64,000 nucleotides of DNA from the NCBI RefSeq assembly GCF_017872555.1, contig NZ_JAEDOX010000002.1, forward strand, positions 1 through 64,000, given 5' to 3'. The translations under genes and the position numbers were made by a program. This stretch comes from Ruegeria sp. HKCCSA071 (GTDB lineage: Bacteria; Pseudomonadota; Alphaproteobacteria; Rhodobacterales; Rhodobacteraceae). Shown here piece after piece: positions 44,460-45,777 of this stretch (the first letter of the stretch is position 1; the number at the start of each line of letters is the position of its first letter). The notes below the pieces were generated by a model, which saw only the letters and a list, made by a program, of their open reading frames with translations, searched no databases and was not told where the DNA came from.

Positions 44460-44852
44460 CTAGGACGGGTGGCTTTCATTTTGGGGGGCATCATCGCAAA
44501 TCTCGTACCAGTCCGGTTTCTCCGAAACAAATTCGTGAAACTGAACTTTCTGCTCTAACCCGGTATCCAGTGCATTTGCTGCGATTGGAAAACTGTCTGC
44601 TTCTGAAATGATTTCGCCCAAAGATGTCCCACAATTCTCGCAGAAACACCTGCCGTATTTGTAGGGCGGATCAGGCCGGTGCAGCGTTACATTTTCCCTT
44701 CCCCGAACCCACACCAAGTCTTCTTTGTTGACAAATACGACTGTGCTGGCCCCGGCTTTTCTGCATCTTGAGCAATGGCAGGTTCCCATCACGGATGGTT
44801 GAGACTTCAGGTTAAACTTCACCGCCCCGCACAAACAGCTTCCTTCGATCAT
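44460..44852 (-). CDS. Gfa/CENP-V family zinc protein (second copy)
   Basis: 130-residue protein with all three cysteine groups of the family: GSCLCGAVKF, CHCSRCRKAG and CFCENCGTSLG. It is clearly diverged from the copy at 25543-25923 and stands alone, with no demethylase nearby. GGAGGAG precedes the ATG at 44852. Function unassigned beyond zinc binding and a possible glutathione adduct role. Confidence 0.83.
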   Translation of the reverse strand: MIEGSCLCGAVKFNLKSQPSVMGTCHCSRCRKAGASTVVFVNKEDLVWVRGRENVTLHRPDPPYKYGRCFCENCGTSLGEIISEADSFPIAANALDTGLEQKVQFHEFVSEKPDWYEICDDAPQNESHPS

Positions 44853-44960: not shown

Positions 44961-44986
44961 AAAAAAGCCGGGCCATTCGGCCCGGC
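44961..44986 (-). terminator. Strong intrinsic terminator (minus strand)
   Basis: Perfect 8-bp stem GCCGGGCC/GGCCCGGC with GAAT loop, followed on the minus strand by TTTTTTCTTTT. It ends transcripts of the response-regulator gene and/or the candidate small RNA. Confidence 0.88.
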
Positions 44987-45037
44987 AGTCCAACAGGGAG
45001 GTGCATGTCATAACCCGGACATGCGCGGGTTGGGAGT
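44961..45037 (-). ncRNA. Candidate small RNA with anti-Shine-Dalgarno loop
   Basis: On the minus strand a roughly 75-nt transcript would begin near 45037 and end in a U-rich tract at 44961. Elements in order are a CCAAC segment near the 5' end, a GCATGTC/GACATGC stem, the pyrimidine-rich ACCTCCCT (complementary to Shine-Dalgarno sequences) preceding GTTGG, which can pair with the 5' CCAAC and leave the C-rich stretch exposed, and the intrinsic terminator at 44961-44986. An FNR-type box and a CATAAT -10-like element precede it. It could instead be a processed 3' end of the response-regulator mRNA. Position of the transcript start is estimated. Confidence 0.5.
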
Positions 45038-45043
45038 AACCTA

Positions 45044-45079
45044 ATTATGAGTACAGGGTATCACTTTGATCCAAGTCAA
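45044..45079 (-). promoter_or_regulatory. FNR/FnrL-type box and -10 element upstream of candidate sRNA
   Basis: TTGATCCAAGTCAA (45066-45079) fits the FNR-family consensus TTGAT-N4-RTCAA. On the minus strand, CATAAT at 45044-45049 could be the -10 element, placing the box around -36 to -41 from the start, as for a class II activated promoter. The box lies 11 bp beyond the response-regulator stop codon. Confidence 0.5.
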
Positions 45080-45090
45080 TCCACACCCAG

Positions 45091-45777
45091 TTAAGACACC
45101 AGCCTATATCCACCGGATTCTGTGACCAAAAGGCGCGCATTTGACGGATCGGGCTCAATCTTCTGTCGCAGGCGGTAGATGTGGGTTTCCAGCGTATGCG
45201 TTGTAACACCTGCATTATATCCCCAAACTTCGTGAAGCAGCACGTCCCGCGCCACCACGCCGTCGGTCGAGCGGTACAGGAATTTGAGGATGTTGGTTTC
45301 CTTCTCGGTCAGGCGGATTTTTCTGTCCTCTTCCGTGATCAGCATCTTCATCGCCGGTTTGAACGTATAGGGACCAAGTACAAATACTGCGTCCTCGGAT
45401 TGTTCGTGCTGGCGAAGCTGCGCACGGATACGTGCCAGAAGTACCGGGAATTTGAATGGTTTCGAAACATAGTCATTCGCGCCAGCATCAAGGCCCAGGA
45501 TCGTATCGGCATCGCTGTCATGACCGGTCAGCATCAGGATCGGGCTTTTGACACCCTGTTTGCGCATGAGGCGGCACAGTTCGCGCCCGTCGGTATCCGG
45601 CAGACCCACATCAAGAATGACCAGGTCATAGATCGCTTCGCGCGCGCGCTCCATGGCAGAGTGACCATCTGACGCCTCGAACACGTCAAAGTCTTCGGTC
45701 ATGACAAGTTGCTCGCTGAGCGCCTCGCGTAGATCCTCGTCATCGTCCACCAGCAGGATTTTCTTGAGTTGAGCCAT
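45091..45777 (-). CDS. OmpR/PhoB-family response regulator
   Basis: Two-domain response regulator of 228 aa. The receiver domain has the acidic pocket DDDED at 11-15, phospho-acceptor Asp56 (VILDVGLPDTDG) and the conserved KP in YVSKPF. A winged-helix DNA-binding domain follows from about residue 130, with RLTEKETNILKFLYR and VTTHTLETHIYRLRQKI. GGAGG precedes the ATG at 45777. No histidine kinase gene is nearby, so it is an orphan in this window. Similar conserved alphaproteobacterial regulators exist, but I do not assign a name. Confidence 0.9.
   Translation of the reverse strand: MAQLKKILLVDDDEDLREALSEQLVMTEDFDVFEASDGHSAMERAREAIYDLVILDVGLPDTDGRELCRLMRKQGVKSPILMLTGHDSDADTILGLDAGANDYVSKPFKFPVLLARIRAQLRQHEQSEDAVFVLGPYTFKPAMKMLITEEDRKIRLTEKETNILKFLYRSTDGVVARDVLLHEVWGYNAGVTTHTLETHIYRLRQKIEPDPSNARLLVTESGGYRLVS

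Follow-up and report, generated by a model that had tools for sequence, protein, structure and literature searches.

The 64,000-nt stretch of Ruegeria sp. HKCCSA071 analyzed here (the window) carries a compact element on its minus strand, and the question it raises is which RNA is made there and what switches it on. A first-pass annotation had proposed an FNR-controlled small RNA that could match an unnamed conserved RNA. The RNA is indeed conserved, but it has a name: cmscan against Rfam assigns positions 45031-44961 to SorX (RF02784) with 75.9 bits (gathering score, 46.6; E value, 7.3e-19) over the whole model (1-73 of 73). Judged by sequence, the element is the SorX orthologue behind cenR, and the reading as an unnamed novel RNA was rejected on the strength of the Rfam assignment. 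A phage origin was also rejected, with 0 matches among 50,697 phage records. The features of the locus are listed in Table 1.

Table 1. Coordinates of the SorX locus in the window and of the related RNA elsewhere in the genome
Feature	Position	Strand	Description
cenR orthologue, OmpR-type response regulator	45091..45777	-	228 aa; Response_reg + Trans_reg_C
FNR-type box TTGACTTGGATCAA	45066..45079	-	centre -41.5 from 45031
-10 element TAGGTT	45038..45043	-	class II spacing, -12 to -7
SorX small RNA (RF02784)	44961..45031	-	hairpin GCATGTC/GACATGC, seed-bearing linker, terminator; 5' end 45031 predicted
Linker seed CACCTCCCTGTTGGACT	44987..45003	-	holds anti-Shine-Dalgarno CCUCC; unpaired in Rfam structure
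Intrinsic terminator stem	44967..44986	-	8 pairs, all GC, then T tail TTTTTTCTTTT
GFA-family protein gene	44460..44852	-	next downstream past terminator; PF04828
SorY-like RNA	C11:681264-681326 (= L002:1501-1563)		59.5 bits to SorY (RF02651), below gathering 111

The response-regulator stop codon does lie just upstream, as had been noted, and SorX begins 59 nt past it on the same strand. The encoded CenR is 86% identical to the protein of locus L048, which is taken to be R. sphaeroides, and its best named match is that of Ruegeria sp. 6PALISEP08 (100% identity); RSP_0847 and CenR are named together in PMC9275681. The internal dyad and ACCTCCCT pointed out earlier are both present on the minus strand, as is the GC-rich terminator with its T tail. 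The CCUCC had been placed in an exposed loop. Instead, CCUCCC sits in the linker that joins the hairpin to the terminator, outside any hairpin loop; it is the ACCUCCCUGUUGGAC linker of the RF02784 plan. The centroid fold likewise leaves the seed unpaired, while the MFE fold places a weak helix of 2 pairs there, and the fold z of SorX in the window is -3.36.

A covariance search of relatives, a check that the first-pass annotation had suggested, found SorX in all 37 genus genomes searched and, at an E value of 1e-12, in 134 of 198 family genomes; 143 matches were taken into further work. The CCUCCCUGUUGGA seed is kept in 174 of the 178 SorX sequences examined. For CCUCCC, the unpaired probability has a median of 0.72 and exceeds 0.7 in 95 of the 178, and the modeled accessibility of the seed would be fair and not uniform across sequences. 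Two weak SorX-like elements, which score 32.9 and 25.8 bits and thus fall short of the gathering score, were also seen ahead of terminators at L003:1501-1558 and L005:1501-1565 (minus strand). Relatives contain comparable weak matches, perhaps representing a larger family of CCUC-bearing RNAs.

The FNR-type box, which had been given in its plus-strand form, lies on the same strand as SorX. At the orthologous place, a box with at most one mismatch was found in 37 of the 37 genus genomes examined (33 of them exact), where shuffles expect approximately 1 to 2. Its centre lies at -41.5 from the SorX 5' end in 35 of these genomes and at -42.5 in the other 2. Across the 4.10-Mb genome, the pattern TTGAYNNNNRTCAA occurs at 37 sites, versus 4 for the backward pattern. 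TA is found at the place of the -10 in 35 of the 37 genus genomes. The CATAAT at 45049-45044 had been taken as the -10 element, a role for which TAGGTT is the better candidate: in the 35 genus loci of equal spacing, its hallmark bases are conserved at 0.97 (T-12), 0.97 (A-11), and 1.00 (T-7), versus 0.60, 0.71, 0.91, 0.66, 0.63, and 0.91 for the successive columns of CATAAT. Mean conservation in these loci reaches 0.92 in the box, 0.85 in the -10 hexamer, and 0.83 in the spacer; the bases preceding the box average 0.76 and the CATAAT stretch 0.74. Within the genus, the complete hexamer is hardly better conserved than the spacer, and its hallmark bases alone stand out. From the second half-site onward, TCAAAGTGATAC (-38 to -27) is invariant in the same 35 loci. 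Just 3' of the box, AGTGATAC (45058-45065, minus strand) is likewise invariant in them, a conservation that would seem to exceed what the spacer of an FNR promoter needs.

A plain sigma-70 scan of this region found no promoter. The SorX promoter is probably of the class II FnrL type, with transcription predicted to start at 45031 and not near 45037, as had been put forward. The predicted start coincides with the 5' end that processing yields in R. sphaeroides. An FNR-controlled small RNA at this locus is well supported as a prediction by the conserved box, -10 element, and spacing. FnrL binding near RSs2461, the former name of SorX, has already been reported from R. sphaeroides (PMC4263372).

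To follow the promoter beyond the genus, we used 127 genomes of other genera in which SorX lies at most 300 nt from cenR, and counted a box as in front of SorX when its centre fell before -38. An exact box stands in front of SorX in 29 of them, and 27 of the 29 have TA where a class II promoter would have its -10. With one mismatch allowed, the box is present in 42 of the 127 and is accompanied by TA in 34 of the 42. Box and TA are thus found together in 34/127 genomes, or in 27/127 when the box is exact. The expected conservation of the box, complete in the genus, did not extend to the whole family, as 81 of the 127 genomes are without any box of at most one mismatch. For controls, every box of the same regions was counted. 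The opposite strand held 0 boxes with TA, the inside of cenR held 0 boxes, and the region downstream of SorX held 2 exact boxes, 1 of them with TA. Shuffles gave 0.2 exact boxes, with a shuffled tail of 20 nt versus 60 nt in the real loci. In 21 of 30 exact-box loci, TTTA lies 34 or 35 nt from the start of the box; all other offsets between 14 and 49 are without it. The strongest argument that box and -10 act together is this constant spacing between box and TA, confined to a single strand. A rough scan of 80 named loci fetched by CenR found an exact box behind cenR in 20; at the head of that list, 8 of 9 Ruegeria-type loci have an exact box and the ninth has one mismatch.

Two further arrangements were seen in other genera. 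At three loci left out of the count of 29 and 27 (L075, L102, and L122), an exact box directly adjoins the 5' end of SorX, at the cenR stop codon, with centres at -12.5, -11.5, and -11.5. Boxes as close as these are too near to give SorX its usual 5' end, and the TA found in two of the three falls inside SorX by chance. In loci without a box, a TTATTGTTGCC-GAATC-like element often lies upstream of SorX (L079, L086, L091, L093, L112, L142, L145, L149, L151, and others). A loose pattern for it fits 20 such loci, and it is possibly another promoter or a regulator site.

It could be argued that SorX is made solely by processing of the cenR mRNA and that the box is a relic or leaves SorX unaffected. 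This is how biogenesis is described for R. sphaeroides, where SorX is reported to be cut from the cenR 3' untranslated region (3'UTR) of an RpoHI/II-driven transcript, with maturation by RNase E and Hfq binding. Reviews cite it as a 3'UTR-derived RNA tied to oxidative stress, and PMC8307010 places it under the RpoE/RpoH network. Moreover, in 27 of 91 loci without a box, SorX lies 2 to 23 nt past the cenR stop codon. In those 27 loci, SorX would be expected to arise by processing or from a start within cenR. Taken with the 81 of 127 genomes without a box, this indicates that SorX does not need the FNR promoter. Processing as the only source is nevertheless unlikely where the promoter occurs, since box and TA keep a constant distance in 35 of the 37 genus genomes, as they do in 27 of the 29 exact-box genomes of other genera, and never on the opposite strand.

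In R. sphaeroides, the RNase E site of SorX is reported at 2,598,224 and the 5' end of pre-SorX at 2,598,182 (PMC6238624). In genome G110, SorX lies at 2598225-2598299, one base off the published RNase E site; because the coordinates abut in this way, we take G110 to be R. sphaeroides 2.4.1. At L048, a degenerate box, TTGCGTGAGATCAA, is followed by TATAAA at the same spacing as elsewhere. FnrL ChIP-seq in R. sphaeroides, in a report that is without expression data, placed a site within the putative promoter of RSs2461 (PMC4263372), and the degenerate box could be the source of that peak. The start predicted for the L048 promoter, at approximately 2,598,196, falls 14 nt downstream of the 5' end reported for pre-SorX, so the promoter leaves that end unexplained.

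As for the regulator, FnrL is encoded in the genome (NF045989, 458 bits versus a cut-off of 300), and an FNR box at G000:C7:33819-33832 precedes the matched coding part of its own fnrL by 28 nt, which suggests autoregulation. FnrL was detected in 169 of 198 family genomes. The box occurs in 1 of 10 genomes without detected FnrL versus 40 of 117 with it, a difference that is not significant (p 0.17). The FnrL-less SorX genomes were 11 as picked, four of them by absence from the listed matches; one (G125) was dropped because its SorX match is not beside cenR, and the sole FnrL-less genome with a box (G157) is 84% complete. Related Crp/Fnr regulators read similar boxes. The promoter may accordingly be real and yet answer mainly to another protein of this family, such as a Dnr-type NO sensor, and the genome does encode several Crp/Fnr-type proteins (19 HTH_Crp_2 matches, 10 above the cut-off). 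We regard this as improbable, given that it was FnrL that ChIP-seq located near SorX in R. sphaeroides and that the same kind of box stands close before fnrL itself. That the box serves the downstream GFA-family gene, with SorX as its leader, is scarcely credible: the gene is on the same strand approximately 115 nt past the terminator stem, but a perfect terminator intervenes and the genus alignment diverges right after it. The gene is probably not part of the SorX system.

We therefore consider it likely that the window carries a SorX orthologue with its own FNR-type class II promoter, one that would be found throughout the genus and in approximately a quarter of the other SorX-cenR genera sampled, with FnrL as its most likely activator. 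With falling oxygen, FnrL would occupy the box at -41.5 and transcription would begin at 45031, giving a 71-nt RNA whose 5' end equals the RNase E-processed end in R. sphaeroides. Read-through from cenR could still feed SorX by processing. The linker ACCUCCCUGUUGGACU of SorX, presumably with Hfq, would pair with mRNAs whose ribosome sites resemble CAACAGGGAGG and block their translation; the outcome would probably be a lowered uptake of organic solutes.

On a cenR tree of 131 rows (126 from other genera, the genus being represented by 5 of its 37 genomes), in which many branches are weak, the promoter state, present in 39 rows, requires 22 changes, below all 500 shuffles (mean, 33.6). The promoter is therefore clustered, yet it was gained or lost repeatedly. 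In one genome (G249), a SorX copy lies 5 nt past the cenR stop codon without a box, and an exact box with TTTA accompanies a second copy, which lies approximately 650 nt further downstream. A similar pair occurs in G207, where the second copy is without TA at the -10 place. A tentative reading is that one RNA with the same 5' end can be made by two interchangeable routes, either cut from the cenR mRNA under stress or started from an FNR promoter at low oxygen, depending on lineage, with the two modes split between copies in G249. Together with the SorY-like sister RNA described below, oxygen lack and heat or oxidative stress might in this manner be routed to one set of mRNAs, mainly for solute uptake.

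What is new here is the anatomy of the FNR promoter, its distribution, and its proposed alternation with 3'UTR processing; the RNA itself is known. As far as our literature searches show, the promoter anatomy is unpublished. SorX and FnrL are both mentioned in PMC8307010, PMC6238624, and PMC9779115, and PMC2908626 raises the possibility that FnrL sites serve unannotated small RNAs. The main text of the CenR paper mentions neither SorX nor sRNA nor FnrL, and that of the R. pomeroyi small-RNA catalogue (PMC4809877) holds neither "SorX" nor "RSs." The available text of the P. denitrificans small-RNA catalogue (PMC5107571) has no mention of the terms searched, and that of the R. capsulatus FnrL paper (PMC4634722) names no small RNA.

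The first-pass annotation had also proposed that the RNA represses translation. This agrees with the published mode of SorX, a reportedly Hfq-dependent RNA that inhibits the translation of potA and thereby reduces the uptake of spermidine (PMC9438474). The masking of ribosome sites by SorX would also fit, because the seed contains the anti-Shine-Dalgarno CCUCC. Over 38 genus genomes, the pattern CAACAGGGAGG-N3-9-ATG gave 118 matches, of which, by eye, 39 lie at SorX and 36 at the SorY-like RNA. This leaves 43, versus 43 for the permuted pattern ACCAAGGGAGG, a comparison that shows no enrichment. Because the site count equals the permuted control, the targets are leads only.

These 43 sites include those of a receptor-like gene of 362 aa that 23 of the 38 genomes carry, 19 of them with an exact site. 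No Pfam family was assigned to it; we take it to be TctC-like. Further sites belong to a gene of this genome for an ABC solute-binding protein (PF01547), to a BCCT gene, to a Peripla_BP_6 gene, and also to non-transport genes. In this genome, well-pairing leaders are those of the ABC solute-binding protein (-24.0) and of secretion-adaptor-like and TAT-signal genes (both -26.6; the latter two labels by eye). In relatives, the leaders of the receptor-like gene pair at -21.5 to -23.6 (18 of 23 loci with the start found). Among the 12 best potA-like loci of this genome, pairing reaches -19.9 and -19.2, which does not set the potA-like genes apart from the strongest background leaders (-19.1), and a single pairing of -22.4 was found at a gene beside one potA-like gene (L358). 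The transport genes among the well-pairing leaders are reminiscent of the transporter targets already published for SorX and SorY.

The SorY-like RNA, which has ACCUCCCUGUUGGACU in common with SorX, would be missed by default Rfam annotation, since its score lies under the gathering score. The exact complement pattern is found at it, by eye, in 36 of 38 genus genomes. Upstream, a CTTG...CCCTAAAT element, which by consensus we take to be of the RpoH type, is present in 17 of 19 genus loci, the pattern having been written after one locus; TTGA-N6-TCAA occurs within 95 nt in 2 of the 19. If SorX and the SorY-like RNA both work, low oxygen and stress would feed one seed.

SorX of R. sphaeroides matches the element in RNA family, place behind cenR/RSP_0847, hairpin-linker-terminator plan, and seed, and an upstream FnrL site was reported there by ChIP-seq. 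It differs in being described as processed and RpoHI/II-driven, unlike the SorX of the window with its predicted own promoter. In the window, an exact FNR box and a -10 element point to a start at the 5' end, whereas the box of L048 is degenerate and 29 nt further up. The conserved FNR promoter could account for the peak seen by FnrL ChIP-seq in that organism. SorY (RSs1543, RF02651) has ACCUCCCUGUUGGACU and the presence of a terminator in common with SorX; the SorY-like RNA differs in its genomic place and in the RpoH-like element upstream. Control by FnrL has already been stated for PcrZ and PcrX of R. sphaeroides (PMC8307010), which differ from SorX in being photosynthesis-linked RNAs. FnrS of Escherichia coli is a small RNA activated by FNR, and in anaerobic cells it represses mRNAs; PMC4263372, which cites this, already compares RSs2461 with FnrS and states a lack of sequence similarity. 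If the proposed promoter operates, many relatives would switch SorX on at low oxygen by transcription, and marine Rhodobacteraceae would have a counterpart of FnrS.
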